From Paramagnetospirillum marisnigri (GTDB lineage: Bacteria > Pseudomonadota > Alphaproteobacteria > Rhodospirillales > Magnetospirillaceae): DNA of 64,000 bases. Shown here in pieces: positions 230 to 30,736 of the stretch (position 1 is the stretch's first letter; every line of letters starts with the position of its first letter). The stretch is taken from assembly GCF_001650715.1 (NCBI RefSeq), contig NZ_LWQT01000010.1:1-64000 (forward strand), read 5' to 3'. The notes beneath the pieces are model-generated. The model did not search any database and was not told the DNA's origin. It was given only the letters and a program-made list of their open reading frames with translations. The position numbers and the translations under genes were made by a program.

Positions 230-628
230 ATGGGGATCAAGCGATACGAGTTGAATGAAGCCCAATGGACCAGGATTTCGTCTCTTTTGCCTGGAAAGGC
301 GGGCGATCCCGGGCGAACGGGCGCAGATAACCGGCTGTTCGTGAATGGATGCTTGTGGGTACTGCGCTCCGGGGCGCATTGGCGTGATCTGCCGGAACGG
401 TATGGTAAATGGAAGACGGTCCATCGCCGTTTCAGCCGCTGGTGCCATGCGGGAATATGGGAGCGGGTGTTCGAGGTTCTCACCGCCGATCGCGACAACC
501 AGTACCTGATGCTCGACAGCACCATCGTTCGCGCCAGATCGAGAAGTCGCTTGTCGCTTCCATGGCAATCCCCAACTGATGAAAAACACACGCCAAAGTG
601 GCTTCTGCTATCTTGTACCCTTGCGTAG
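230..628 (+). pseudogene. truncated IS5-family transposase (N-terminal part)
   Basis: Residues 1-103 match the N-terminal part of IS5/IS427-group transposases (DUF4096-like region): an opening helical segment, the conserved WVLRSGAHWRDLP block, the W..VHRRF.RW block, and the stretch LMLDSTIVRA that leads into the catalytic DDE half. Directly after this, at about position 540, family similarity stops; the last 30 residues are unrelated frame read-through. Intact members are about 250-270 residues, usually made from two overlapping frames, so this is a remnant without the catalytic core and cannot move itself. It lies at the outer side of a probable genomic island, 160 bp upstream of the operon starting at 788. 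I am confident in the family and moderately sure of the exact breakpoint. Confidence 0.85.
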
Positions 629-787
629 ACTAGGTGGAATCGCAGTCAGTGAAAAGGTCTCCGCAGTGCCCTGCCTTGGAGAACGCCAGGACACTCATGG
701 AAATCTGGAGGGGGCTCGACCTGGCACCTATCCGTCTATTCCTGAAATTCGGGTATCATCCCCGGCACCAAGGAGGGGAGAATCAAA
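629..787 (+). promoter_or_regulatory. leader of the MotA/FliG-like operon with strong Shine-Dalgarno
   Basis: This is non-coding sequence between the transposase remnant and the first operon gene. A near-perfect Shine-Dalgarno, AAGGAGG, sits at 770-776, 11 bases before the ATG at 788, and fixes that start. I did not find a convincing -35/-10 pair, so the promoter is unplaced and could lie in the IS remnant. Confidence 0.5.
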
Positions 788-2188
788 ATGACATCAGCAC
801 CTGCCGAGGCAGACATCGACCTCATCACCCTGGCCCCGACCAGGGAAACGGCGCGCGACCTTTGCCTGCTGATCAACGATCTGTGCCACCTGGACAAAAT
901 GCGGCAGATCGTCGTCCTGGAAGACACGCTGGATCACCCCGAGCGCAGCCTGCTGTTCTACGCTTATCGCCATGTACGGGATCGCGCTTGGCTGGCGGAA
1001 CCGCTGCGCGACATCTTCCGCCACATCACCTTGGGCCTGACCGAGCAGGTCCAGGTCGAGCGCCTGCTCGATTCCCGTATCGCGGCCGTAGGCGAGGATG
1101 ATAGGCGGTACATCCGCGACACTCTTGCCGGAATGGCCGACACACCGGCGCGGGAAGATCTGCGTGAGCGGCTGAACGATGCCGCCGCCGACAAGGTGCT
1201 GGTGCTGCGTGCCCTGCGCAACGCCCTGGCAGCCCATGTGGGCGGCTATACCCCGCAGGTTTCGGCCGATTATGCCAGGTTCTCCCTGCCGAAGCACCTG
1301 CGACTGGGCTATGACGAGTTTCTCGACGGCATCAACAACTCGGCTGGCAAGCGTATTCGAAGCCCCAACGAGATGCTGCTTCCCGTCGACCCTATCGACC
1401 CCACCACCACCGATTACGACGACCAGATGGCCCGTCGGCTTGGGGAGAATTTCGAGGACGAAGAGGAGGATGAGCCGGTCGAGGCCCCGCCGGATCTCGA
1501 GGCCAGACTGGTCGCTATCGCCAAGGGCTGGGCCACTGACGATAGCGACTGGCACCGATCGGTCGACCGCTTGGCCGAATACCTTGAGATGATCGGCAAG
1601 CCCGCGCTAATGGAGCTGCTCCGGCTGGTCGACAAGAATGACTGGGGTGTAGGCCTCCTGGGCCTGCCAACCACGGTGGTTCGTCGGGTCTTCAGCCTGA
1701 TGAGCAATCGCGCCCAAGCGCTGCTGTTGCGGGACATGGAAGAAGAAAGCGATTTCGACGGCATTTGCCGGACCCCTGGCGCCGTATCCAAGGTGCGCGA
1801 AAGCATCATTGATGTCATTGAGCAACGTGGCCTTGCCGATGGCGGCGCTGCGCTGTTGAAGACGTTCATGCATCCCCATGTTGGCTGCGACGCATTCGAT
1901 GCCTTGGCCCAGAAGGAAGATGCCGAACTAAACTCGTTGTGGCGCAATATCGAGAAGGATCGGATGGGAATTGCGCTGCTGGGCACCACCGCCGAGGTGG
2001 CGGTACGGTTCCTCGACCGCCTAAGCGAGAGGGCTCGCCAGATGATGCTGGATGACATGAAAAACCTGTCCGGTTCGGTCACGGCCTCCGACATCGAAAA
2101 GATCCAGAAGGAAATCGTCGGGTCCTGTCGGCCGCTTGAAGATGTCCTGGCCGATATACGGGAGCTTCTGGCGAGTCCGGGCGCATGA
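788..2188 (+). CDS. soluble MotA-loop/double FliG-C-like chimeric protein
   Basis: A 466-residue protein I do not recognise as a named family. Residues 20-105 resemble the cytoplasmic loop of the flagellar stator protein MotA: K37 and E45 fall where E. coli MotA has R90 and E98, and the LED..DHPERS stretch matches LER.IENPRES. Residues 140-180 resemble the MotA C-terminal tail (GGYTPQVSADYAR...LPKHLR). The two transmembrane helices that separate these parts in MotA are missing, so the protein looks soluble. An acidic linker (about 205-235) leads to two FliG C-terminal-like repeats, about 270-345 and 376-460. The torque-helix arginine is R308 and R415; E. coli D288/D289 correspond to R315/D316 and D422/D423. 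Strong Shine-Dalgarno; the stop overlaps the next ATG by 4 bp. Homology is judged by eye. Function is unknown, but interference with or modulation of the flagellar motor is a reasonable guess. Confidence 0.75.
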   Translation: MTSAPAEADIDLITLAPTRETARDLCLLINDLCHLDKMRQIVVLEDTLDHPERSLLFYAYRHVRDRAWLAEPLRDIFRHITLGLTEQVQVERLLDSRIAAVGEDDRRYIRDTLAGMADTPAREDLRERLNDAAADKVLVLRALRNALAAHVGGYTPQVSADYARFSLPKHLRLGYDEFLDGINNSAGKRIRSPNEMLLPVDPIDPTTTDYDDQMARRLGENFEDEEEDEPVEAPPDLEARLVAIAKGWATDDSDWHRSVDRLAEYLEMIGKPALMELLRLVDKNDWGVGLLGLPTTVVRRVFSLMSNRAQALLLRDMEEESDFDGICRTPGAVSKVRESIIDVIEQRGLADGGAALLKTFMHPHVGCDAFDALAQKEDAELNSLWRNIEKDRMGIALLGTTAEVAVRFLDRLSERARQMMLDDMKNLSGSVTASDIEKIQKEIVGSCRPLEDVLADIRELLASPGA

Positions 2189-3381
2189 GCGGGATTACTT
2201 CGATCCGCTCATTGATCCGCGAAGCCCCGACGCGGGAAGCCGCCCTGGCCCTGCTGCTGTGCCTCTACGACCTTTGGTCCTTGGCCAAGGCCAGAGGGCC
2301 GCTGGCTTTGGAAGACCACGTCGTTCATCCCGAACGGAGTGTCATCCTCCACCAGCACCGGTCATTGGCCCGACTGCCCTGGCTGATGGAACCGCTGATG
2401 GATCTGGTGCGCCACTTCACCCTGGGAACCGATGGCAGTTCCGCATACGGCCAAATGATCGACGGCATCATTGCCGCTGAGGAGCGGCGGATGCGCACCG
2501 TCCAAGGTTTGGTGATGCTGCTTGCCACGGCAATCACCGCCTTATGGGCGATGGCCATGGCTATCGTAAGACCACCCCTGGTCATGGAAGGAAGCCTTGC
2601 CTGGCCCATGGTCACGCTCTGGATCGTCCCCATGGGGCTGGCCATGCTGGCGCTTCATTGCGTCAAGGTTTGGATCGGATGGATCGCGAGCGAGCGGCTC
2701 GGCATGCTGGAGGCACTGCGCCGAGGCATCTGCTTTCACGCCGATGGCGCATTTGCCCCCCAGGTGAGCGCGGATGCCGCCCGCATGGCATTGCCACAAC
2801 GGCTACGGCCGAGCCATGACCAGTTGGAAGCCATGATCAGGGCTGAGTCCGTACGGCACCTCTATCCCGGCGCCCCCCTGCTGTTGCCTGCGGGCAAGGC
2901 CGGCGGAAAAGACTGCACCACGGCCATCCAGGACATGCTGGACCGGCTAATGCCGTCCGATCTTGACAGTTTCGAGCGAGATCAGAGGTTGGATGAACTG
3001 CTGACCGATCTTTCCGACGATCTGCCTCCCGAGCATTCCGCCGTATCCGTGGACTTCAACCGGTTGTCCCTCCTTGGAACAGATGGCATCCGAGTCTTGC
3101 TGCATTCCGTTGACAAGGACGTATGGTCCCTGGCGCTGCGCGGAGCCAGCTCACATACGGCTCGGTCCATCCTTGACTGTATCAGCCATCGCGCCGGGCG
3201 ATTGTTGATGCGGGACATGGAGGCGCTGGACGGCGCTACGGCGGTGGAGATTCTTGAGGCCCAGCGCACGATCATCGAGACGATCAGAAACTTACGTGCG
3301 ACAGGAACTTTGCCGGATCAGGCGACCTTGAACAGGGAGTTTCTCGCGCAGCTCTCATCCCTGGACGGCCCCCTATCCTGA
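2185..3381 (+). CDS. membrane MotA-like/FliG-C-like chimeric protein
   Basis: A 398-residue protein with the same plan as its neighbour but membrane-bound. Residues 15-103 resemble the MotA cytoplasmic loop (LLLCLYDL...ALEDHVVHPERS; K35 and E43 at the MotA R90/E98 positions). Two transmembrane helices follow at about 106-127 and 139-163, where MotA has TM3 and TM4. Residues 172-217 resemble the MotA tail (FAPQVSADAAR...LRPSHDQLE). Residues 292-367 form a FliG C-terminal-like domain: R319 at the E. coli K264 position, R336 at R281, R343 and D344 at D288/D289. MotA TM1 and TM2 are absent, so it is not a complete stator subunit. The start codon overlaps the previous stop as ATGA, indicating translational coupling. 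The MotA part is clear by eye; the FliG part is good but needs profile confirmation. Confidence 0.75.
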   Translation: MSGITSIRSLIREAPTREAALALLLCLYDLWSLAKARGPLALEDHVVHPERSVILHQHRSLARLPWLMEPLMDLVRHFTLGTDGSSAYGQMIDGIIAAEERRMRTVQGLVMLLATAITALWAMAMAIVRPPLVMEGSLAWPMVTLWIVPMGLAMLALHCVKVWIGWIASERLGMLEALRRGICFHADGAFAPQVSADAARMALPQRLRPSHDQLEAMIRAESVRHLYPGAPLLLPAGKAGGKDCTTAIQDMLDRLMPSDLDSFERDQRLDELLTDLSDDLPPEHSAVSVDFNRLSLLGTDGIRVLLHSVDKDVWSLALRGASSHTARSILDCISHRAGRLLMRDMEALDGATAVEILEAQRTIIETIRNLRATGTLPDQATLNREFLAQLSSLDGPLS

Positions 3382-3421
3382 CGCAAATCATCGCAATGGC
3401 ATTCATGGCGGGAGCATTCGA

Positions 3422-4231
3422 GTGACGATATTTACATCCGTAATCCAGCCAGTGCGCGCGCTGCACCGCGAGGCGCCGACGCGGGAAGCCACCCTGGCCT
3501 TGCTGCTCTGCCTGAACGAACTGTGGGCATTTGCCAGGGACAAGGGCGATCTGGCGTTGGAGGCCCATGTGGAGGCGCCACTCTCCGATTCCCTCTTCCT
3601 CCATCACAAGGCCGTGTGCGATCTGCCCTGGCTGCTGACGCCACTGGTGGATTTCGCTCGGCGGCTGACCCTGGGCTCCAATAATGCCAAGCAGGCCCGG
3701 CGTCTGTTGCAGGCCTATCGGGAAACCGAGCGGCGTGCCCTGGAGCAAGTTCTGCGGCAGGCATCGCTTGTCTGGCCACTGGGGCTTTGCCTGTGGCTTG
3801 CCGGTCTGGCGGTGCTGGGTGAGGCGGGCATCACGGCGCTGGCCTGGTGGGCGGCCTCGCTGGCCGCCGCTGGCGTGGTGTCGGGACTTTGGCGGATCCG
3901 CCTTCGATCCATCGTCGATCAACGCCTCGGCGTTCTCGACGCCATGATCGAGGGCTGCCTGTCTTATCTGAACGGCTACGTGCCACGGGTCTGCGCCGAG
4001 AATGCCCGTTCCGTCCTGCCACCGGCCCTGAGGCCGAGCGTCTTCGACCTGGACGAGGCCCTTGGCGCGCACAGCACATCCATCCCCGCCGTTGGCACGG
4101 TCGCCGCCCGGAGTAAGGTGCTCGATCTAATTGGGGCCAAGGCCGATTCCGGGGAACCAACCGTCGGGACCACGGAAGAAGCTGACCTGCTGGCCCTGTG
4201 GAAGCGGATGAACGGTGAGGAAAAGACATGA
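3422..4231 (+). CDS. truncated MotA-like membrane protein
   Basis: A 269-residue paralogue of the two preceding proteins without a FliG-like domain. Residues 19-108 resemble the MotA cytoplasmic loop (R39 and E47 at the MotA R90/E98 positions). Two transmembrane helices lie at about 115-133 and 138-157. Residues 170-213 match the MotA tail (YLNGYVPRVCAENAR...LRPSVFDLDE). Compared with real MotA (about 285-295 residues) it lacks TM1 and TM2, so it could not form the usual ion-channel interface. It starts with GTG, supported by GGGAG nine bases upstream, 40 bp after the previous gene, and its stop overlaps the next start by 4 bp. It may pair with the membrane chimera encoded just upstream. Function is not known. 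Confidence 0.75.
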   Translation: MTIFTSVIQPVRALHREAPTREATLALLLCLNELWAFARDKGDLALEAHVEAPLSDSLFLHHKAVCDLPWLLTPLVDFARRLTLGSNNAKQARRLLQAYRETERRALEQVLRQASLVWPLGLCLWLAGLAVLGEAGITALAWWAASLAAAGVVSGLWRIRLRSIVDQRLGVLDAMIEGCLSYLNGYVPRVCAENARSVLPPALRPSVFDLDEALGAHSTSIPAVGTVAARSKVLDLIGAKADSGEPTVGTTEEADLLALWKRMNGEEKT

Positions 4232-4511
4232 TGCCGGACAGCCCCTGGTCCCAGGATTCCTTCCTGACCACCCTGGCCTTTGCCGCCGAACGGCATGGCG
4301 ACCAGAAGACGCCGACAGGCTTTCCCTATGTCACCCATCTGGCGTCGGTGGCGCAGGAGGTGATGGCCGCCCTGGCGACAGAGCCCGGACGTAATGGCAC
4401 CCTGGCGGTAACGACCGCCCTGCTCCATGACGTGATCGAGGATACCGCCACCAGCCCCGAGATGGTGGCGGAGCGATTCGGTCCCGATATCCTGGCAGCG
4501 GTCACCGTCAC
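4228..4511 (+). pseudogene. truncated HD-domain protein (RelA/SpoT-type (p)ppGpp hydrolase-like)
   Basis: About 95 residues of an HD phosphohydrolase like the hydrolase half of RelA/SpoT enzymes or small alarmone hydrolases. The pattern is H..Q.T..G.PYVTHL..VA, then ALLHDVIEDT (the HD pair) and a final FGPDILAAVTVTG where intact proteins have LV.GVTKL. Family similarity stops at about 4511, exactly where a tyrosine-recombinase fragment begins in another frame; the original frame then runs on as unrelated sequence to 4689. The ATG overlaps the stop of the MotA-like gene by 4 bp, so it belonged to that operon and was cut later. Intact small hydrolases are about 180 residues, so this remnant is probably inactive. 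HD assignment is confident; the substrate is inferred from family. Confidence 0.75.
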
Positions 4512-5042
4512 TGGGAGGTTGATGAGGTTGACGCTTTTCTCCGCTCTGAGCTCGAACCAGGGATCCGGCTGGCGTTCATGCTGGGGCTATATCTTGGTCA
4601 GCGCGAGCGCGACATCATCACCATGCGTTGGGATCAGTATCAAAATGGTGAGATTGTTCTCACCCAGTCAAAAACGGCTCAGCCTCTGACCCTTGCGATT
4701 GCGCGTCCGTTGGCGGAGGCCCTGGACGGGGCACCGAGGCAGGGTATGACCATGGTGATCTCGGCGAAGGGGCGGCCATACCGCGAAGACAATTTTCGCC
4801 ATCGCTTTGCCAAGGCGATGAGGCAGGCGGGGTTGAAAGGTCTGACCTTCCATGGCCTGCGCAACACCATGACTGCCATGCTTGCGGAGGCAGGTTGCAC
4901 CAATCCGGAAATCAAGGCGGTTACTGGGCATGTGACCGATCAAATGGTGCAGCATTATCTCGGCCACGCCCGACAGAAGGAGCGTTCTGCCTCGGCCATT
5001 GGCAAGCTCGAAAAGCTGCTGGATGCGGGGCGGAATTCATGA
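4512..5042 (+). pseudogene. C-terminal half of a tyrosine recombinase (island integrase)
   Basis: The recognisable frame begins at about 4512 (W..DEVDAFL...EPGIRLAFMLGL) upstream of the first ATG at 4578. The catalytic domain is complete: counting from the ATG at 4578, Arg I is R9 (in GQRERD), the HGLR box gives H92 and R95, then H118 (TGH) and the nucleophile Y127 (HYLGH). The N-terminal arm-binding and SAM-like core-binding domains are missing, replaced by the HD-gene fragment, so this is a deletion or recombination remnant. The gene points at the 3' end of the tRNA-Lys gene 100 bp away, the usual arrangement for integrases of tRNA-targeting islands. The family call is firm; recombination activity is unlikely. 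Confidence 0.9.
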
Positions 5043-5142: not shown

Positions 5143-5218
<76 letters not shown>

Positions 5219-20447: not shown

Positions 20448-23400
20448 TCACGCCCGCACCGGCATGGGGGTGTCGGCGGGGTCCGGGCTGTCTTCCGACA
20501 GCGGCTTCCAGACGATTCCGGCCTCGTTGAAGGCGTGCCAGATGCGGGTCCAGACCTCATCGGTGGCGAAACGCATGCGGCCCATATGCTTGATGCTGAA
20601 GCGGATATTGTAGCGCGCCACCCAATGGCCGCCGATGCATTCCACTCCGGCGAAATGGATCTCGGCGCCCTCGGTGGTGCCGCCGCCCTCGGGGTCCTCG
20701 CCAGCGATGAATTCCTTGACCCCCACCAGGGAATGCTTGAGCAGTTCCACCACCTGCACCGGGTCGTGGCTGGGATCGGCGTGGATGATCAGGCCGGTAT
20801 AGGCACCCTTGGCGCTGCTGTAGTTGTGGACCTCGGCCTCGGACACCTTGCCGTTGGCCAGGGACACCATATAGCCGTTGGAGCGGATGCGCACGGTGCG
20901 CCAGGTGATGTCCTTGATCTGTCCGGCGATGCCGCCGATCTTGACGAAGTCGCCCACCTTGAACGGGCGTTCGATGTTGAGCACCACGCCCGAGAAGATG
21001 TTGGCGATATTGGCCTGCACCGCCAGGCCGATGATCATGGCCAGCACGCCCGAGGTGGCCAGCAGGCTGGTCAGGGTCTGGCCCATGACGAAGGCCACCA
21101 CGCCGCAGGCCGCCAGGGCATAGACCACGAAGGACGACAGCATGCGGATGACGTTGGGAATCTTGCGGTTGGTGCGGCTTTCGATGGGCACCCACAAGAA
21201 ACGTTCCAGCGAGATGGTGACGATGCGGGCCGGAACGATCCACCACAGGGTCTCGTAGACGAAATAGATGGCGTCGATGGCCGAGGTGCTGAAATTGGCC
21301 AGCGCGTAGTCGAGGATCAGGTTGCCCACGGAGACCAGCAGCAAGGGCCAGGTCACCGCGCGCAGGACCAGGGTCTGCATGCGCCAGAACTGGCCGCGAT
21401 CCTTGCGGTCGAGCAGGCTGGCCAGCACCGAGCCCACCAGCGAGAAGATGGCGAAATAGATGAAGGAATCCGCCGGGAAGGCGTCGCGGGCCTTGAAGCC
21501 GTCCGGCTTCAGGATCATGCCCATGTCGATCAGCGAGAAGGACGGCAGCGGCTTGCCGAAACCGACGAAGGTGGGATCGCCGGACGAGCCCTGCAGCGAG
21601 GCTTCCTGCGATACCCAGGCCCGCTCGATCTCCCAGCCCGACAACCCGGCCAGCACATGGGCCCGCATCATCATGTCCACCAGCGGATCGGCATTGACCA
21701 TGCCGCCGCTCAATCCGGCCAGCAGCGCCTTGACCGAATTGCCGCCATCGCCCTCGCTGATGGACATGCGGCTTTTCTTCAACTGCTCCTGAAGGGTGCC
21801 GCCGCTGCCCAGATCCATGCCCAGCACGTCGGAGACGTACATCAGGTTGTTGCGGTTGAGGATGCGGTGGTGGAAGGACAGGCCCACCAGCTGGGTGCCA
21901 TAGGCGCGGCTGACCTGGGAGTAGTTGCGGAAGAACTTGCCGTGCACCCGATAGGACCGGTACAGCATGTCGCCGTCCTGGCCCTCGCGCTCGGGATGCT
22001 CCAGCTTGATGGGGGTGACGGCGTTGGTGAAGACCACGTCCTGGGGGTTGATGTCGCCGCGCCAGCGGAACCAGATGGTCAGGTCCAGGTCGACGGTATT
22101 GGCCTTGGTGTCCATGGCCGACACCTTGTCCACCTTGACCCCGGCGAAGACCACATTGGTCTTGTACATGAAGCGGTCGTTGACGTAGAGGGCGCGCCCG
22201 GCGATCAGCTCCTGCAGGTAGTTGGCGACGCCCTCCTCGCGGATGGGCGACAGCTGGGTCAGGGCCGAGATCATCTCGATGCCGTCATACTGGCCGATCC
22301 AGGCCGGGGCCGCCGACACACCGCGCGCGTCGAAATATTGCGGCCCGTTGATGCCAGGGAAGGCCTTGTCCACCCGGTTCATGGCGGCCAGGGCGTCGCG
22401 TAGCGCCTTGCGCACCGATCCGGGCTGGCGCTCGGCCGAGGACAGGCCGCGATAGGTCTCGCTCAGCAACCGTGCCCCGTCGAAGGCATAGCCCGCCAGC
22501 CAGTCGGGCGAGGCACCGAATTTCTCGATATAGCCGTTGCGGAAGCGTTGCGCCCGCTCGCCCGCCGTGTCCAGCAGCATGGGGGCGCTGACCAGGGTGC
22601 CGTTCAGTGCCGCCCCCACCGAGCCCTCGCCCTTCCAGTGATTGGCCAGGCTGGCGCGGAAGGCGTCGGTGGCCAGGGCGCGCAGGCCGACCACCTTGTT
22701 GCGCACGCCGCCCTTGCGCAGGCCCGCCACGATGCGGCCCGCCGCCTCGGCGTCGCCGAGGACGAACACCGCGCCGATCAGCTTCTTGTCGTTGATGTCG
22801 GCGGCGATGCGCTCGATATCCTGGTCCAGCCCCGCCGCGGCCGGGTCATAGGCCCAGCGGAACAGCACCTTGGTGCCGAAGCGTTGCAATACCTCGTCGA
22901 ACACGGTGGACAGGGCTTCGTCGCGGGGGCTGCCGGAATGGATGATGGAAACCGTCTTCTCGCCCACCACATTGCGCACGTAATTGGCCAGGAAGCGGGT
23001 CTCGAAGGTCTCGTCGAAGGTGGTGCGGAACAGCCAGGGATCGGCGGGCAGGGCTTCCTGCTGCGCCGTGGCCGGGGTCAGCGCCGGGATGCCGCGCGCG
23101 GCATAGACCTCGGCCGCCGCCCGCGCCGCCGCGCCCGAGGCATGGCCGATGACGCCGATGACATCGCTGGCCGCCGCTTTCTCGGCCGCCGCTTTGGCCT
23201 GGACGGGGTCGTCGCCATCGTCGATCCGCAGCACCGCCAGGGGATGGCCGCCGATGCCGCCCGCCTTGTTGACCTGCTGCACCAGCAACTCGACGCCGCG
23301 ACGGATGGACTCGCCCTGATCCGCCGCCCGGCCCGAGGCCGGGGCCAGCACCGCGATGGAGACCGGCTTCTTGGAACTGGTGTCCAGGAACGCGATCCAC

Positions 23401-23513
23401 ATCACCAGGGAAACCAGCCCGGCGACGGCCGCCGCCACGCCCAGCATGGTCAGGAACAGGCCACGCTTCGACATGTTCGACAGGCGGTCTTGGATGGTGC
23501 GGATCAGGTCCAT
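20448..23513 (-). CDS. chimeric channel: type I periplasmic binding protein + Cys-loop-like ectodomain + MscS pore
   Basis: A 1021-residue protein with an unusual architecture. A signal-anchor helix is at 19-43. Residues 51-425 are a LivJ-like type I periplasmic binding domain (AVLAPASGRAADQGESIRRG, AVLRIDDGDDP, VIGHASG). Residues 445-565 resemble the ligand-binding ectodomain of prokaryotic Cys-loop receptors (NTVDLDLTIWFRWRGD, MLYRSYRVHGKF, LMYVSD). Four helices follow at about 682-701, 713-735, 745-769 and 788-810. Residues 817-900 are an MscS pore helix and beta domain (GLAVQANIANIFSGV, RPFKVGDFVKIGG). The expected product is a ligand-responsive MscS-type channel in the inner membrane with a large periplasmic sensor. 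It lies 14 bp after the adhesin gene and 10 bp before the secretion ABC gene. PBP and MscS parts are certain; the middle part is by pattern. Confidence 0.85.
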   Translation of the reverse strand: MDLIRTIQDRLSNMSKRGLFLTMLGVAAAVAGLVSLVMWIAFLDTSSKKPVSIAVLAPASGRAADQGESIRRGVELLVQQVNKAGGIGGHPLAVLRIDDGDDPVQAKAAAEKAAASDVIGVIGHASGAAARAAAEVYAARGIPALTPATAQQEALPADPWLFRTTFDETFETRFLANYVRNVVGEKTVSIIHSGSPRDEALSTVFDEVLQRFGTKVLFRWAYDPAAAGLDQDIERIAADINDKKLIGAVFVLGDAEAAGRIVAGLRKGGVRNKVVGLRALATDAFRASLANHWKGEGSVGAALNGTLVSAPMLLDTAGERAQRFRNGYIEKFGASPDWLAGYAFDGARLLSETYRGLSSAERQPGSVRKALRDALAAMNRVDKAFPGINGPQYFDARGVSAAPAWIGQYDGIEMISALTQLSPIREEGVANYLQELIAGRALYVNDRFMYKTNVVFAGVKVDKVSAMDTKANTVDLDLTIWFRWRGDINPQDVVFTNAVTPIKLEHPEREGQDGDMLYRSYRVHGKFFRNYSQVSRAYGTQLVGLSFHHRILNRNNLMYVSDVLGMDLGSGGTLQEQLKKSRMSISEGDGGNSVKALLAGLSGGMVNADPLVDMMMRAHVLAGLSGWEIERAWVSQEASLQGSSGDPTFVGFGKPLPSFSLIDMGMILKPDGFKARDAFPADSFIYFAIFSLVGSVLASLLDRKDRGQFWRMQTLVLRAVTWPLLLVSVGNLILDYALANFSTSAIDAIYFVYETLWWIVPARIVTISLERFLWVPIESRTNRKIPNVIRMLSSFVVYALAACGVVAFVMGQTLTSLLATSGVLAMIIGLAVQANIANIFSGVVLNIERPFKVGDFVKIGGIAGQIKDITWRTVRIRSNGYMVSLANGKVSEAEVHNYSSAKGAYTGLIIHADPSHDPVQVVELLKHSLVGVKEFIAGEDPEGGGTTEGAEIHFAGVECIGGHWVARYNIRFSIKHMGRMRFATDEVWTRIWHAFNEAGIVWKPLSEDSPDPADTPMPVRA

Positions 23514-23527
23514 GGACGAAGAGGCCC

Positions 23528-26500
23528 CTAGGTGACGGTGACGTGGATGGTATGCGCGGTGGTATGTCCGTGCTGATCGCTGATATCAATCACGAAACTG
23601 TCGGAATGGGCGGTGCCGCCCGCCGTATAGGTAAAGGTTTCGCCGCTCAGCGAGACGCTTCCATATTGGGCGCCGCCATTGGGGTGCACACCATCGTTAT
23701 GGAGGGCGTAGCTCAGCGAATCATTGGTCGAGGTGGTCCCCAGGACCATGGATTTGTAGCTGCTGCCGTGGGCGACGGAGAAGTCATCCCAGTCATTGGC
23801 GGTTATCCCGCTCGACCGGCCGGCGCTGCCGTTCTTCCCGGTGGCGTCCGCGAGACTGTTGGAGGTCTCGTCGAGATGGAACGAGGCCAGCAATCCGCTT
23901 TCGGTGCCCAGGGTCTTGTGGGTCATGTCGGCCTGGATCTCCTGGGAACTGCGTGCGGTGTTCCAGACGTTCACACCGGCCAGGTCGCCATTCAGGAAGC
24001 GCTGTCCGGTGTAGCTGGGGTCGGTGTCATTGCCAAGGATCAGGTTGCTGGTCGGCAGGTTGAACTTGCCGGCACCGGGCGTGGCCGAGGTATCGGCGAC
24101 GCCGTCGATATACATGGTCATCTGGTTATTGTCGTAGGTGGCGGCGATGAAATGCCATTTGCCATCGGCCACGCTGATGGAGCTGTCCAAAGATGCATGG
24201 CCGCCGCCGCCGGTGGTGTCGAGGCGGACCTGGCCCGATGGCCCCACCAGTACTTTCAGGCCATTGCCCCCCGGCTGATCCATGAAATTGACCAGACCAA
24301 CCCAATTGGCGGTGCTGCCGGTGATCTTGACCCAGGTTTCCACCGTGTAGTTGGCGGCCATGCTTGAAAGTCCGGTCGCCCCGTTGTTGAAGCTCAGGCC
24401 ACTCACCCCGCTGAAATGGGTCGAGTATTGGTTGGGCAGGTTGATCGGCAGGTTGAGCGTGGTCGAGGCGGTCGCCGTGTTGTTGGCGGTGTTGCTGTCG
24501 CCGATGCTGGCGGTGACGCTGGCGGTTTGCGCCAGGCTGGACCACGACGCCGAGGCCGTGCCGTTGATGCTGAAGGTGGCGACCTCATTGGGGGACAGTT
24601 TCAGCGTGGTGTCGATGCCGCCGGTACCGCTCCCCGAGCCGCCGCCATTGGTGGTGTAGCTCCAATTGTTCACGGTAAAGCCGTTGGGGGCCGTATAGAC
24701 GAAATGGGCACTGGGATCGGTGACCGAGCCACTGTTGGTCACCGTCGCGGTCAGCGTCAGGGCATCTCCCAGATTGGCGGTGGCTGGGCCGCTGATGCTC
24801 GCCGACAGGTCGGTGGTGGTGACGGGGTTCAGTACCGTCACCACCACGTTGTCGATCTCGTGGTTGTTGGTGGCGCCGCCGGTGGCGCCGGAGAAGCCCA
24901 GCGACACGGTGTCGCCGATGGCGTCGGCTAGCTGCGTGTACTGGAAGTTGCTCCACAGATCCAGCCAGGTCCCGCCGCCATCGAAGCTCATCTTCAGATT
25001 GAAGGTCTTGTTGGCGTTCATGGTGAACTCGACCTTGCGACTTCCGACCAGCCCGACATTCCAGCCTGCGACATTGACCGCCGAGCCGCTCACATAGGGA
25101 GTATGGTCGTTGCCGGTGACGGCGTTACCGACCCGCATGGCGACGATATTCGGGGTGGTCTCGGTGAAGGGGCCGCCCCAGCTGAGGCCCGCGTTGGAAT
25201 TGGTGAAGTTGCCGTATTCGTCGAAGCCGACCCCCATCAGCAGGTTGGACATGCTGTGGACGTCAGACGAAAGCATGCCGGCGAAGCCCAGCAGCGGACC
25301 ACCACCGCCCAATGTGGGGCCGGATGCGGTGCCGTTCAGCATGACCAGGGCGAAACCATCGGCGGTGCGGGGATGGTTGACGTTGGTGCCGCCTCCGACC
25401 CAGTAGTCGAAGGTCACCTTGAAGCCCTGGGCGGTGGACAGGCCGGACTTGAAGATGGCGCTGCCCTTCTGGTCCGTCGCATTGACGTTCAGGTGCAAGA
25501 CGCCGCCGCCGATGCTGGCGGAACCGCCCAGCCACCAACTGCCGAGATCGGCGTTGAAGGCATCGGATACCAGGGTGTTCGAACTGATGCTGATGGAAGC
25601 CGTCTCGGTCGCTGTGCTGAAGGCGGTGCCGGTCAGACTGACCCAGTCATGCGCGTTGCCGCTGGTCTGGTCCCAGGCCTTGTAGGTGAAGGTGGCGTTG
25701 CCGGTGGTGGCGCCATCGGGCACGAAACGCAGGCGGTCGGTCGCGGTCAGCAGCAAGCCGTTGGAGCCGTTGAAGGAGGCGCTCAGCAGATTGGTCCAAC
25801 TGGTGCCGCCATTGATGGAATATTGCCACTGGCCCAGGCTGTTATCGACACCGGTGACGGCGATGCTTTTCGGGACCGAACCGCTGGTCACGTCCACATC
25901 GGTGATGGAGCCGTTCGGTATGATGTCCGAGATCAGCTTGCCTGGATTGGTGGTCGCGATCTTGTCGATGGAAGACAGGGTCGGGCTGTAGCTTGTGTTC
26001 AGCACCGGGGCGTCGTTGACCGAAGTAATGGTCAGGGAATGGGTGGCGGTGGCGGTCTTGGCGCCGCCGGTTCCCGAATTGCCCTGGTCGTCCACAGTGA
26101 CGCTGACGCTGCCCGTGCCGGAATAATTGGCGGTGGGGCTGTAATTCAGCGTCGCCAGGGCGGTGGTCAGATTGGCGAGGGTCCCGGTGAAGACCATGCT
26201 GGAATCGCTGGTGCCGTCGCCGGTGGTGAAGCTCAGACCGGTGGTCGAGGCCAGGGTGACGGCGCCATTGGTGGAGGACAGGGTGACCTTGATCAGGTCA
26301 TTGGCCTGCGCGTCAACGTCTCCCACCGTGCCGGTGATGCTCAGAACACCGTCCTCGGCCAGGGTGGAGGCGGCGCTCAGCGCGATGGTGGGGGCGTCGT
26401 TGGTGGCGGTGATGGTGAAGGTGCCGGTGATGCTGGGGGTCGGCCCGGCGCCGTCGTTGAGGGTGACCGTCACCGCCCGGTTGAGGTCGCCGGTGGGAGT

Positions 26501-29500
26501 ATCGCTGGCGGTGGTGTAGCGCAGCGCCGAGACCAGGGCCTCCACCGAGACCCGGTTGGCCGCCGTGGCCAGGGCGATCTTGAGGCCGGTGCCCTGGCCG
26601 TTCAGGGTATTGGCGTCCACCGTGCCGATGGTGGTGCCGTTATAGCGGATGGTGCCGCCCGCCACGGTGATGCCGCCGGTTTCGGCGACGCTGAGGCGGT
26701 CGGTGGTGGCATAGCTGTCGAAGGTGACCATCAGATCGCCGCCGCCATAGGAATGGACCTTGGGATTGCTGATGGCGACGCTGGACACCAGCGCCATGGG
26801 GGTGTCCTCGGTATAGGCGGTTCCGGCGGCGCCGGTGAAGGCCAGGGTGGTGTTGCCGGACTGGTTGACCGTCACGCTGATGGTGGTGGGGTCGGTGTCG
26901 ACACCGTTGACCGTGGCCTTGACCTGCACGTCGTAGGAATGGCTAGCATTGGTGGCGAAGTCGATATCGGCCCCGGCCACCAGCACCAGATTGGTGCCGG
27001 AAATGGCGAACATGCCGCCGGGATTGCTTACCAGGGAATAGGTGGTGGTGGCTCCCGTCGCCGCCCGCGCCGTGCTCAGCGCCGCCACCACGGTCCCGCC
27101 CACCGCCTTGTCGGTCTCGTTCATGTTGGGAATGGGATTGAGGACCGTGCCGTCCTTCACCACCCAGCTGTAGACGCCATTGATTCCCACATTGCTGGTG
27201 TTTTCCAGATTGGTCATGGACGAGGTGCCGGATCCCACTACCTCGCCGTAGTTCTTGGTGGCGGGAACCCCCGCCGTCCAGCCGCCGGTGGCGCCCTGGC
27301 TCCAGTTGATGCTTTGGTAGCGCAGGATGATCTGGAAGTCGGTGGCAGCATAGCCCGCGATGCCGGAGAGGGGCTTCAGCTGGATCTGGAAGGTGTCGGC
27401 GCTGGAGACGAAGATGTTGTAGGCGTGGACGTTGGAATAGGTCACCACGATGCCATCGGTGGCGTTGACGGCCGTGGTGATGCTGCCGCCCTTGCGGGTA
27501 TCGATGTCGTTGTACATGCCCGCCACCATGGGCAGGGTCGATCCGGCGATGCCACGCGGCGAATAGGATGACGAGCCGGTGCCGAAGGTGATGTAGCCGT
27601 TGGACCCGGCGAACAGGTTGGTATAGGTGGTGCTGCCCAGCTTCAGGCCATTGGCGAAGGCCGAGGCGATGTTCAAGGCCCAGTAAGTGTCGTCGGCCGA
27701 ACCATAGGGGGACAGGGTTCCCGACAGGCCGGTCAGCACCGACTTGCTGCCGGGATCATAGGGCAGGGCATTGCTGCCGATGCCCGAGTAAACAACGATG
27801 GGCGGGTCGGGCTGGGTGATGACGATCTTGGCGGTGTCGGTGGCGGTGGAGAAGGCGGTGATGCCGCCCGTGGCCGACATGTTGTTGGCGGCATAGCCCA
27901 CCGAGCCCGAGGTTTGGTCCCAGGCCCGATAGGTGAAGGTGGCGGGGTTGCCGCTGGCCAGGGTGTGGCTGCCATCGGGCACGAAGCGGACATAATCGTC
28001 GGGGCGCAGCAGCAGGGCCGAGTTGGCGCCGATGGCCGGAAAATTGGCCCAGGTCGGGGTTGCCGCATCGTAGATCATGTATTGCCAGGTACCGTAGGAA
28101 TTGGGCACCGAGGTTCCGGTGATGGCGATGCCTTGCGACGGGGTGGCATCCACCTCGCTGATGCTGGACTGGAAGATGGTGGAAACACGCTGACCCGGCG
28201 TGTCGGTCTGGGAATAGGTCAGGGATTCCAGGGACGGCGCGGCGGCGGTCAGGACGGGAGCATCGTTCACCGGATTGATGGTGATGGCGACGCTGTCCTG
28301 GTCCTGCTTCTCGCCGCCGCTGCCGGAATGGCCGTCGCCATTGCCGTCCAGGGTGGTGATGGTCAGGGTGTCGGTGCCGTTGTAGTTCAGGGTATTGCGA
28401 TAGGTGATGGACGCCAGGGCGGCGTTCAGCGCCGTCTTGGTGCCGCTGAAACTCATGGCGGCATCATTGGTGCCGTCGCCCGCCGTGAAGGTGAGACCGG
28501 TGGTCTGGCCCAGGCTGACGACGCCGTGACCGACACCCAGGCTGACCTTCATGGTCTGGCCCTGGTCGTCCAGATCGGAAATGGACAGCTTGGTGGCGCC
28601 GCTCAGCACCAGATCATTGTCCTCGTCCACCGTCCGGCCGGAGGAGACGGAATTGACCGGGGCGTCGTTCACCGCCGCCACGGTGATGTCGAATTCGGCG
28701 CTGGCCGAGGCCTCGCCGTCGCTGACGGTGATCAGGGCCTTGCGAACGGTGGTATGGGGGTCGTCGCTGAGATTGCGATAGGCGAGGCTGCGCAACACAT
28801 CCTGATAGGCAATGAGCGAGGCTCCACCGGAAAATTCAAGAAGCCCGGTAGCCGAGTTCATGGTCGCGGTCATGCCGGTGGGCAGGGTGTAGGTGATCTC
28901 GTCCTCGGTGGGAAGCCATCCGGTGAACTTCACCTGGACCAGGGACAAGGCTCCGTCATCGCTATCGGTGACGCGCAGCAGCGGCTGCAAGCTCAGCGGT
29001 GCGCCGTTCTCGGTATAGGCGGCCACGGTGCCGGGGACGGACAGGGACGGCGCCTGATTGGGAAGCGGCGTGGTGGGCGGCGTGTTGACCGGGCCGGTAT
29101 CCTGGGTGTTGTTGGTGTTATTGCTGGTGTTGCTCGACGTGCCGAGGATCTGCGGCGGCGGCGGCGTGAAGGTGATGGCCACGGTCTCGCCCGGCGACAG
29201 ATTGGTCGAGCCGCTGCCGCTGGTCCCCGGGCCGGTGGCCCCCCCCGGCGTCGGAGCGGGCGGCGTCAGGCTGGGAGCCGAGGAGGTGAACAACTGGGGC
29301 GCCGACTGCCCGACCGGGGCGATGGCCTCGCTTGGGCTGGTGGAGGGACCGAAGGAAGACAGCGACTGCACCCCCTGGCCGCTGGCCATGGCCATCAGGG
29401 TGGGATCGGAGGTCACGCCCTGGCTGGCCTGGCTGGTCTGCTGTTGCGACGACTGGGCGGCGCTTCCTGCCTGTTGGGCAGCAGCGCCGAAATCGCCGCC

Positions 29501-30736
29501 CTTGGCTAGGGCCGAGGAGAGGTTGGCGACGAAAGCGGCGGAATCACCGCCGAAATTTCCCGCCATGGAGTTGATGGCCCCCTGGGCGTTCTGGCCGCTG
29601 GCCAGGGCGGCGCCCAACTGGGCGGCGGGCGACAAGGGCACAGAGGCGGAGGCCGTCTGGGTCTGGGCGGCGTCCGAGGCTCGCTGGGCGGTCTGGGTGG
29701 CGGAGGCGATGTCCGATCCCTTGGCCAGGGCCTGGGTCAGGGCATTGGCGAATTCGGCCCCCCCCGCCAGGGCGGTGCCGGTATCCTTGCCGGTGGCCAG
29801 GGCGTTCATCAGCGCCTGACCCGGCGACACCGGCACGGACTGGGCCTCGGTCTGCCGCGATTGGGCTTCGGTGGCCTGGGTGGCGGCCTTGGCGGCATCG
29901 CCGGAACTGCCGCCCCTGGCCAGGGAATTCAGCATGGCCTGGAGACCGGCGCCATTCTGCAGCCCCGCCGCGCCGCCATTGGCCAGGGCGGCGATGATCT
30001 GGTCGGCGGCGGACATGGGTACCGTCTGGGCATTGGCGATATCGGCCTGGGCGGCGGCGGCCTGTCCGGCGGCCTTGAGGGCGGTATTGGTGTCGGCCCC
30101 CGAGGCGGCGGCGGCCTGGAAGGTCTTCAGGAAGGCGCTGGCCTGATCCGGCGGCATCCCGGCGGTGGCCGTCTTCAAGGCATTGGCGGAGTCGGTGCCG
30201 CCCGCCAGCGAACTCATCAGCCCGGCGGCGGCGGTGGTGGGGGCCTGGGCGCCCTTGGCGGTATCCACCGCCTTGACTCCGGCCTCGGCCTGCTTGAGGG
30301 CGGTGGCCATGTCGACGCCCTTGGCGATGGCGTTCTGCAAGGTATTGATGAAAGCATCGACATGCTGCTTGGTCACGGCGCCCTTGCCCACCACATTGGC
30401 CAGGGCGGCCTGGACATTGTCGCCCTTGGCCAGGGCCTGGACCAGGGCATTGGCGTTGGCGCCTTCCGTTGCTTCGGCCTCGGTGCTGACCTTGGTCTCG
30501 CTCTTGACCACGGCGATGGCCTGGCCAGGGGGCACGCCCTCGCCCAGGGACTTGGACAGGCCCTGGGTGAAGGACTTGGCCGCATCGGCAGCCTTGTCGG
30601 CGGGGACACCCAGCTTGGCGAAGTGGGCGGCAATGGACTTTTGGGTGACCGCCAGGGCCTCGGACACGCCCTTGCCCGAGGCGAAGCTTTCCAGCAACGC
30701 CTGGGGAGGTGTCCAATCCTTCAGGTCAAAAATCAT
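23528..30736 (-). CDS. giant secreted multidomain adhesin (type I secretion substrate)
   Basis: A 2402-residue protein without an N-terminal signal peptide. Residues 1-480 are alanine-rich helical repeats; the clearest are three units of about 62-73 residues beginning VPMSAAD, VPVSPGQ and VPLSPAA, each with an ALA.G...AL core. A Pro/Thr/Asn-rich linker spans 480-557. Cadherin-like and VCBS-like beta repeats with NDAP motifs recur between 565 and 1720. A nidogen-like (NIDO) domain lies at about 990-1190 (DDTYWALNI, GSNGYITFG, YNDIDTRKGG). An L-type lectin-like domain lies at about 1724-1964, a CARDB/DUF11-like domain follows, and a LamG-like domain spans about 2102-2280. The tail (DSFVIDISDQHGH...) is cadherin-like. 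No GGxGxD RTX nonapeptides are seen. Adjacent secretion genes make it the likely exported cargo, probably for surface or biofilm attachment. Confidence 0.88.
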   Translation of the reverse strand: MIFDLKDWTPPQALLESFASGKGVSEALAVTQKSIAAHFAKLGVPADKAADAAKSFTQGLSKSLGEGVPPGQAIAVVKSETKVSTEAEATEGANANALVQALAKGDNVQAALANVVGKGAVTKQHVDAFINTLQNAIAKGVDMATALKQAEAGVKAVDTAKGAQAPTTAAAGLMSSLAGGTDSANALKTATAGMPPDQASAFLKTFQAAAASGADTNTALKAAGQAAAAQADIANAQTVPMSAADQIIAALANGGAAGLQNGAGLQAMLNSLARGGSSGDAAKAATQATEAQSRQTEAQSVPVSPGQALMNALATGKDTGTALAGGAEFANALTQALAKGSDIASATQTAQRASDAAQTQTASASVPLSPAAQLGAALASGQNAQGAINSMAGNFGGDSAAFVANLSSALAKGGDFGAAAQQAGSAAQSSQQQTSQASQGVTSDPTLMAMASGQGVQSLSSFGPSTSPSEAIAPVGQSAPQLFTSSAPSLTPPAPTPGGATGPGTSGSGSTNLSPGETVAITFTPPPPQILGTSSNTSNNTNNTQDTGPVNTPPTTPLPNQAPSLSVPGTVAAYTENGAPLSLQPLLRVTDSDDGALSLVQVKFTGWLPTEDEITYTLPTGMTATMNSATGLLEFSGGASLIAYQDVLRSLAYRNLSDDPHTTVRKALITVSDGEASASAEFDITVAAVNDAPVNSVSSGRTVDEDNDLVLSGATKLSISDLDDQGQTMKVSLGVGHGVVSLGQTTGLTFTAGDGTNDAAMSFSGTKTALNAALASITYRNTLNYNGTDTLTITTLDGNGDGHSGSGGEKQDQDSVAITINPVNDAPVLTAAAPSLESLTYSQTDTPGQRVSTIFQSSISEVDATPSQGIAITGTSVPNSYGTWQYMIYDAATPTWANFPAIGANSALLLRPDDYVRFVPDGSHTLASGNPATFTYRAWDQTSGSVGYAANNMSATGGITAFSTATDTAKIVITQPDPPIVVYSGIGSNALPYDPGSKSVLTGLSGTLSPYGSADDTYWALNIASAFANGLKLGSTTYTNLFAGSNGYITFGTGSSSYSPRGIAGSTLPMVAGMYNDIDTRKGGSITTAVNATDGIVVTYSNVHAYNIFVSSADTFQIQLKPLSGIAGYAATDFQIILRYQSINWSQGATGGWTAGVPATKNYGEVVGSGTSSMTNLENTSNVGINGVYSWVVKDGTVLNPIPNMNETDKAVGGTVVAALSTARAATGATTTYSLVSNPGGMFAISGTNLVLVAGADIDFATNASHSYDVQVKATVNGVDTDPTTISVTVNQSGNTTLAFTGAAGTAYTEDTPMALVSSVAISNPKVHSYGGGDLMVTFDSYATTDRLSVAETGGITVAGGTIRYNGTTIGTVDANTLNGQGTGLKIALATAANRVSVEALVSALRYTTASDTPTGDLNRAVTVTLNDGAGPTPSITGTFTITATNDAPTIALSAASTLAEDGVLSITGTVGDVDAQANDLIKVTLSSTNGAVTLASTTGLSFTTGDGTSDSSMVFTGTLANLTTALATLNYSPTANYSGTGSVSVTVDDQGNSGTGGAKTATATHSLTITSVNDAPVLNTSYSPTLSSIDKIATTNPGKLISDIIPNGSITDVDVTSGSVPKSIAVTGVDNSLGQWQYSINGGTSWTNLLSASFNGSNGLLLTATDRLRFVPDGATTGNATFTYKAWDQTSGNAHDWVSLTGTAFSTATETASISISSNTLVSDAFNADLGSWWLGGSASIGGGVLHLNVNATDQKGSAIFKSGLSTAQGFKVTFDYWVGGGTNVNHPRTADGFALVMLNGTASGPTLGGGGPLLGFAGMLSSDVHSMSNLLMGVGFDEYGNFTNSNAGLSWGGPFTETTPNIVAMRVGNAVTGNDHTPYVSGSAVNVAGWNVGLVGSRKVEFTMNANKTFNLKMSFDGGGTWLDLWSNFQYTQLADAIGDTVSLGFSGATGGATNNHEIDNVVVTVLNPVTTTDLSASISGPATANLGDALTLTATVTNSGSVTDPSAHFVYTAPNGFTVNNWSYTTNGGGSGSGTGGIDTTLKLSPNEVATFSINGTASASWSSLAQTASVTASIGDSNTANNTATASTTLNLPINLPNQYSTHFSGVSGLSFNNGATGLSSMAANYTVETWVKITGSTANWVGLVNFMDQPGGNGLKVLVGPSGQVRLDTTGGGGHASLDSSISVADGKWHFIAATYDNNQMTMYIDGVADTSATPGAGKFNLPTSNLILGNDTDPSYTGQRFLNGDLAGVNVWNTARSSQEIQADMTHKTLGTESGLLASFHLDETSNSLADATGKNGSAGRSSGITANDWDDFSVAHGSSYKSMVLGTTSTNDSLSYALHNDGVHPNGGAQYGSVSLSGETFTYTAGGTAHSDSFVIDISDQHGHTTAHTIHVTVT

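Follow-up and report, generated by a model that had tools for sequence, protein, structure and literature searches.

The window analysed here is a 64,000-nucleotide stretch of Paramagnetospirillum marisnigri DNA (contig NZ_LWQT01000010.1, positions 1 to 64,000), near the start of which lie three adjacent genes, here called P1, P2 and P3. Each product carries segments resembling the cytoplasmic loop and the tail of the flagellar stator protein MotA, joined in P1 and P2 to the C-terminal torque domain of the rotor protein FliG (FliG_C). In flagellar motors these stator and rotor faces normally belong to separate proteins, which meet via the MotA loop and FliG_C. An initial annotation of the DNA had proposed three translationally coupled genes. 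All three open reading frames (ORFs) were recovered (Table 1). P1 and P2 share an ATGA overlap, which recurs between P3 and the next gene, and P1 overlaps P2 in all five operon copies containing P2; P2 and P3, by contrast, do not overlap and are 40 bases apart. The block immediately 5′ of P1 is whole in five of the six operon copies described below and partly missing in the one at locus L038 (alignment of the six upstream regions), and a sigma-70 scan found no site within it.

Table 1 Features of the trio and its surroundings in the window (E, expectation value; RBS, ribosome-binding site; TM, transmembrane helix)
Feature	Positions	Strand	Length or evidence	Content or remark
IS4/5-family transposase gene, part	230..628	+	Pfam DUF4096 1.5e-28	Upstream edge
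Block 5′ of P1, kept in other copies	725..787	+	RBS-like AAGGAGG	Likely promoter region
P1	788..2188	+	466 aa	MotA loop, short soluble hairpin, MotA tail, two FliG_C; no membrane helix
P1 MotA cytoplasmic-loop segment	839..1141	+	TIGR03818 positions 71-170	
P1 MotA tail segment	about 1190..1330	+	Alignment	
P1 FliG_C copy 1	1586..1747	+	PF01706 E 2.5e-5	
P1 FliG_C copy 2	1895..2143	+	PF01706 E 8.6e-15	
P2	2185..3381	+	398 aa	MotA loop, membrane hairpin, MotA tail, FliG_C
P2 MotA cytoplasmic-loop segment	2215..2544	+	TIGR03818 positions 65-175	
P2 membrane hairpin at MotA TM3-TM4 place	about 2512..2664	+	Hydropathy peaks, model helices	
P2 MotA tail segment	about 2686..2841	+	Alignment	
P2 FliG_C	3040..3312	+	PF01706 E 4.3e-17	
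P3	3422..4231	+	269 aa, GTG start	MotA loop, membrane hairpin, MotA tail; FliG_C apparently deleted
P3 MotA cytoplasmic-loop segment	3443..3736	+	TIGR03818 positions 58-156	
Truncated small alarmone hydrolase	4228..4689	+	Pfam HD_4	Resemblance to longer copies stops near 4503
Phage-type integrase, C-terminal remnant	4578..5042	+	Pfam Phage_integrase 2.6e-16	
tRNA-Lys	5143..5218	-		Possible attachment site of an island (inferred role)

The NCBIfam model TIGR03818 (MotA1) matches each protein in two stretches (E values of 1.8e-13 for P1, 2.7e-12 for P2 and 1.4e-12 for P3), which bears out the loop and tail segments in all three; the scores, 46.4-50.3 bits, fall well short of the 303.8 bits set as the equivalog cut-off. 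An alignment running from loop to tail spans P1, P2 and P3 of two genomes, and only ~20 residues precede the MotA loop, so that MotA TM1 and TM2 are missing, as had been proposed. Pfam FliG_C matches P1 (5.8e-22, two stretches) and P2 (3.4e-17), both above the curated cut-off, in agreement with two copies in P1 and one in P2, and the Pfam scan did not find FliG_C in P3 of the window. Of the profiles that the initial annotation had named, FliG_C thus matches, while Pfam MotA_ExbB (PF01618) gives nothing in P1, P2 or P3. The PF01618 model covers chiefly the channel part, the very part that is missing here. Pfam gave no match in P1-P3 to the FliG N-terminal or middle domain, or to a PilZ or glycosyltransferase domain. 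Profiles, alignment and model together uphold the homology of both faces, and the outcome that the initial annotation would have taken as a refutation, an absence of profile matches, did not occur. The operon contains no MotB partner; MotB_plug was found elsewhere in the genome (contigs C49 and C109) and not on the window's own contig (C10), and the host's own MotA, MotB and FliG are present, all on other contigs.

On the stator side, 18 chimeric parts (six from P1, five from P2, six from P3 and one from a solo chimera) were compared with 24 of 47 collected canonical MotA proteins. Numbering follows the Escherichia coli MotA sequence, the letters of which at positions 90 and 98 agree with PMC12505986. 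The position of R90 is lysine or arginine and that of E98 is glutamate in all 18 chimeras, and D128 and R131 are kept in all 18 as well. The opposite is seen for P173, T209, Y217 and P222 of TM3-TM4, which we take to be ion-path residues: each is kept in none of the 18 chimeras versus 23-24 of the 24 canonical proteins, and the six P1 proteins have no residue at T209 or Y217, most of the TM3-TM4 stretch being missing altogether. When class-invariant positions were defined as those identical in at least 23 of the 24 MotA proteins, and kept ones as those retained in at least 17 of the 18 chimeras, the loop kept 16 of 50, the tail 13 of 30 and TM3-TM4 0 of 41. On the rotor side, 19 chimeric FliG_C domains were compared with four of six collected FliG proteins of the host genus. 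R281 and D288-D289 were placed in host FliG at the positions that we take to be theirs, and the D289 equivalent is kept in 18 of the 19 domains. R281 and D288-D289 are named as FliG residues in PMC12505986. As judged by alignment, the chimeras have thus kept part of the stator face, with R90 and E98 as its contact positions, have lost the channel and show partial erosion of the rotor face.

Beyond the MotA loop and tail of the initial description, P2 and P3 also hold a TM3-TM4-like hairpin; this hairpin, the alarmone hydrolase, the island context and the restriction to one genus are all additions to that description. Two Kyte-Doolittle maxima, at residues 110 and 142 in P2 and 114 and 135 in P3, sit between loop and tail, at the place of MotA TM3-TM4, whereas P1 has no hydropathy peak there and carries a short soluble hairpin instead. 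The AlphaFold model of P2, built from a 40-row alignment, has a mean predicted local distance difference test score (pLDDT) of 85.2 and a predicted template modelling score (pTM) of 0.63, with long helices at residues 85-127 and 139-186; because its alignment contained canonical MotA and FliG_C rows, it is not independent of the homology. Foldseek superimposed the P2 model on 1qc7_B, the FliG_C of T. maritima, with a template modelling score of 0.90 by target length (root mean square deviation 1.0, 85 columns) and on the MotA chain 9luc_B with a score of 0.62 by target length (215 columns); the top-ranked FliG rows superpose badly over the whole chain. For P1 (pLDDT 79.7, pTM 0.49), the clear structural matches are to FliG.

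A search for the trio with P2 as query found full-length relatives in 4 of the 17 genomes of the window's genus, and a fifth, G043, carries P1 and P3 without P2; the set is thus found in 5 of the 17, including one that lacks P2. None of the remaining 38 genomes of the family has a full-length P2 relative. In wider searches, with at most four or five candidates scored per genome, the other-genera matches listed stop by P2 position 248, short of FliG_C, in the order (317 genomes) and by position 244 in the class sample (385 genomes), and in the phylum sample (398 genomes) the window's own genome alone passes 1e-33. Relatives of the trio were found neither in plasmid records nor in viral contigs, and six P1 peptide patterns, an insensitive scan of exact patterns in one genome per species, found one locus, L005. 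In all, six operon copies are known, in genomes G000, G038, G039 (two copies), G043 and G047, together with one solo chimera in G039. P1 and P3, with full-length open frames, and the alarmone hydrolase are present in all six copies, in the order P1-(P2)-P3-small alarmone hydrolase; a 652-aa gene in L034 and about 590 bases in L035 intervene between P3 and the hydrolase. P3 of L034 carries FliG_C, and the absence of this domain from P3 of the window therefore looks like a deletion.

In a tree of the 18 chimeric and 24 canonical MotA parts, the chimeras all group together on the same side of a branch (support 100/99), and P1, P2 and P3 form separate groups; the tree is unrooted and drew warnings of long branches and of odd composition in four rows. 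Shared motifs suggest that the chimeras may derive from the host lineage's own MotA, but in the tree a long branch connects them to all MotA proteins together. Arrival from another family was considered and rejected. Locus L005 comes from a record titled Terasakiella sp. PR1 that seems to be the same as G038, of the window's genus, and its genes are 100% identical. PMC6532209 lists Terasakiella sp. PR1 among magnetotactic strains and places Terasakiella with Thalassospira; given this placement, the title may not fit the L005/L039 assembly. Magnetotaxis was also dropped as support, as it is doubtful that the strain of PMC6532209 corresponds to this assembly and magnetosome genes lay outside the searches.

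Pairwise ratios of nonsynonymous to synonymous divergence (dN/dS) are 0.23-0.40 for both P1 (15 pairs) and P2 (10 pairs) and 0.21-0.46 for P3 (15 pairs), 40 pairs in total, compared with 0.03-0.13 for MotA (10 pairs) and 0.04-0.15 for FliG (15 pairs, in which one of the genomes lacks the set). When the window is compared with G038, G039 and G047, synonymous divergence (dS) is 0.19-0.26 for P2, 0.62-0.77 for P1, 0.56-0.69 for MotA and 0.37-0.54 for FliG, while among the latter three genomes it is 0.15-0.28 for P1 versus 0.66-0.83 for MotA. These contrasts suggest that the trio has a mosaic history and has been exchanged among members of the genus. Downstream of the trio, the window has the truncated hydrolase, then the integrase remnant and then tRNA-Lys. 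The solo chimera of G039 likewise has a phage-type integrase gene and a tRNA-Gln nearby, and no tRNA was found in the five further operon-bearing stretches examined.

The chimeras share with MotA of the E. coli type (TIGR03818) the loop with the R90 and E98 positions, the tail motif GYAPQVS..AR..LP..RPS and, in P2 and P3, the hairpin at the TM3-TM4 place, and differ from it in lacking TM1-TM2, the four ion-path residues compared and an adjacent MotB, and in the added FliG_C. With FliG they have in common the torque domain PF01706 and its D289 position, but they show no N-terminal or middle domain match, have lost R297 and are fused to a MotA part. ZorA of Zorya and the generic MotA/TolQ/ExbB ion transporters are related to MotA, as the chimeras are. 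ZorA and these transporters have a channel, and the PADLOC defence models gave no match to P1-P3 at E 0.1. Two regulators offer possible functional parallels. YcgR binds both MotA and FliG, according to PMC10140304, and one protein touching both would be the shared action; unlike YcgR, P1-P3 have no PilZ match and are made of the motor's own parts. PMC3000366 describes EpsE of Bacillus subtilis as a clutch on the rotor whose gene belongs to an exopolysaccharide operon, so that a clutch encoded with surface-matrix genes would be common to both, but EpsE is glycosyltransferase-like and P1-P3 have no such match. YcgR and EpsE are thus existing examples of clutch and brake functions of this kind. 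In copies where it is complete, the operon's final gene matches solved MESH1-like small alarmone hydrolases. The initial annotation knew of no described system with this layout; our literature searches (titles and abstract openings of the papers listed, excluding subscription papers and preprints) agree, with no MotA-FliG chimera among them.

Our preferred reading, which we hold tentatively and at not quite an even chance, is that the trio is an island-borne, membrane-anchored clutch or adaptor acting on the flagellar motor. It is in keeping with the retention of the rotor-contact positions, the loss of the channel and the presence of membrane hairpins. P2 and P3 would be anchored in the inner membrane by their hairpins, P1 would bind them from the cytoplasm and the complex would dock onto the motor. 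There, its MotA-like loops would sit on the torque helix of FliG and deliver no force, while the chimeric FliG_C domains would occupy the MotA loops of genuine stators; with both occupied, the complex would serve as a brake, a clutch or an adaptor that tunes the motor. A link to nutrient stress may come from the alarmone hydrolase, and the exoprotein or secretion genes near the trio in three loci would suit a switch from swimming to settling. The decoy, brake or adaptor of the initial annotation is therefore partly supported: the homology of both faces is upheld, and action on the motor is what we infer from R90/E98 kept and the ion path lost, set against eroded FliG charges. It is a doubtful possibility that the capture of both torque faces on single chains, without a channel and with an alarmone hydrolase, marks a mobile membrane complex coupling alarmone level to the motor or a new non-flagellar assembly. 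A natural chain with both faces and no channel would be a tool for studying the MotA-FliG contact and would show motor parts reused as regulators. A true clutch would connect swimming with the stringent response and with mobile islands; if the trio is no clutch, it shows that the torque interface can turn into an ordinary binding module.

Several observations weigh against a clutch or adaptor. With 16 of 50 invariant loop positions kept, retention of R90 and E98 is only modest evidence, and the charges of the 19 FliG_C domains are eroded: R281 is kept in 10, the acidic residue at 288 in 7, the basic residue at K264 in 5 and R297 in 0. The Foldseek E-values of the P1 and P2 models are all >0.001, no MotA is among the best 50 of 97 rows of the P1 structure search, and a profile of P2 relatives run against PDB sequences found 11 FliG chains and 0 MotA chains; in PDB sequences, host MotA itself finds solved MotA only at E 5.5e-13. 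Twelve of the 17 genus genomes lack the set, 11 of them with a normal-scoring FliG. Among the operon copies, P2 is missing from one of six, with a full-length frame in the other five, P3 is without FliG_C in all except L034 and the hydrolase is truncated in the window. The 30 neighbouring ORFs scanned, part of all ORFs, include no flagellar gene, and FliG_C is also found in further proteins of this bacterial family that appear to be non-flagellar.

These points bear differently on the alternatives. The contact between MotA loop and FliG_C may have been reused among P1-P3 themselves, as a self-contained, membrane-anchored scaffold off the flagellum that serves signalling or the neighbouring secretion genes. 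We consider this possible, if rather unlikely: it is kept in play by the partly eroded, drifted charges on the FliG side, by family proteins that have FliG_C and no other FliG part (in some, Sel1-like repeats were recognised by eye) and by the large exoprotein or repeat-protein genes near the L005/L039, L034, L035, L036 and L037 copies, whereas the two rotor-contact positions of the MotA side are kept in 18 of 18 chimeras. That the chimeras tune the motor, altering stator recruitment, torque or switching instead of braking it, seems to us quite unlikely. Such an adaptor has the same anatomy as a clutch and nothing direct separates the two; the host retains complete MotA, MotB and FliG, but most genomes of the genus manage without the set. 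Very unlikely, in our judgement, is that duplicated motor genes were shuffled on islands as passenger debris with no function selected in the host. The patchy occurrence, the broken hydrolase of the window and dN/dS values above those of MotA and FliG agree with debris; against it, dN/dS is at most 0.46 in all 40 pairs, the frames are full-length, the P1/P2 overlap is kept in every copy that has P2 and the upstream block is conserved.

Around the operon copies, the gene content varies. In the window hydrolase, 92 residues match the other copies and the second half is lost, while its full-length counterpart in L037 resembles small alarmone hydrolases of solved structure (6z3o at E 1.5e-30). A 1341-aa lipase/cadherin-type protein is encoded near the L005/L039 copy and a 1877-aa lipase/RTX protein near that of L034, and both genes adjoin ABC and HlyD-type secretion genes (by eye only). 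L036 has two-partner secretion genes, L035 a gene for an ankyrin-repeat protein and L037 one for a WG-repeat protein. In four of the six copies (L034, L035, L037 and L039), a gene of 287-328 aa diverges from P1. The ~650-aa proteins of L034 (13740-15698) and L035 (6602-8554), which lie before or after the hydrolase, are relatives with 33% identity and have no Pfam match. In G047, a TrkA_N-RyR domain protein is encoded immediately 5′ of P1 (L038:12236-14050, minus strand). The region L036:2938-14614 holds, beside the solo chimera and the secretion genes, a 562-aa gene, the integrase and tRNA-Gln; the 562-aa gene has only a weak PADLOC match to JetC (E 0.002). Proteins with FliG_C other than FliG are encoded at L093-L095 in the window's own genome, at L090 (G024) and at L089, L091 and L092, several with Sel1-like repeats by eye. 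Farther along the window, on the minus strand, lie genes for a 1021-aa protein that combines a periplasmic binding domain with a mechanosensitive channel domain (20448-23513) and for a 2402-aa protein that contains laminin G, nidogen-like and cadherin-like domains (23528-30736).

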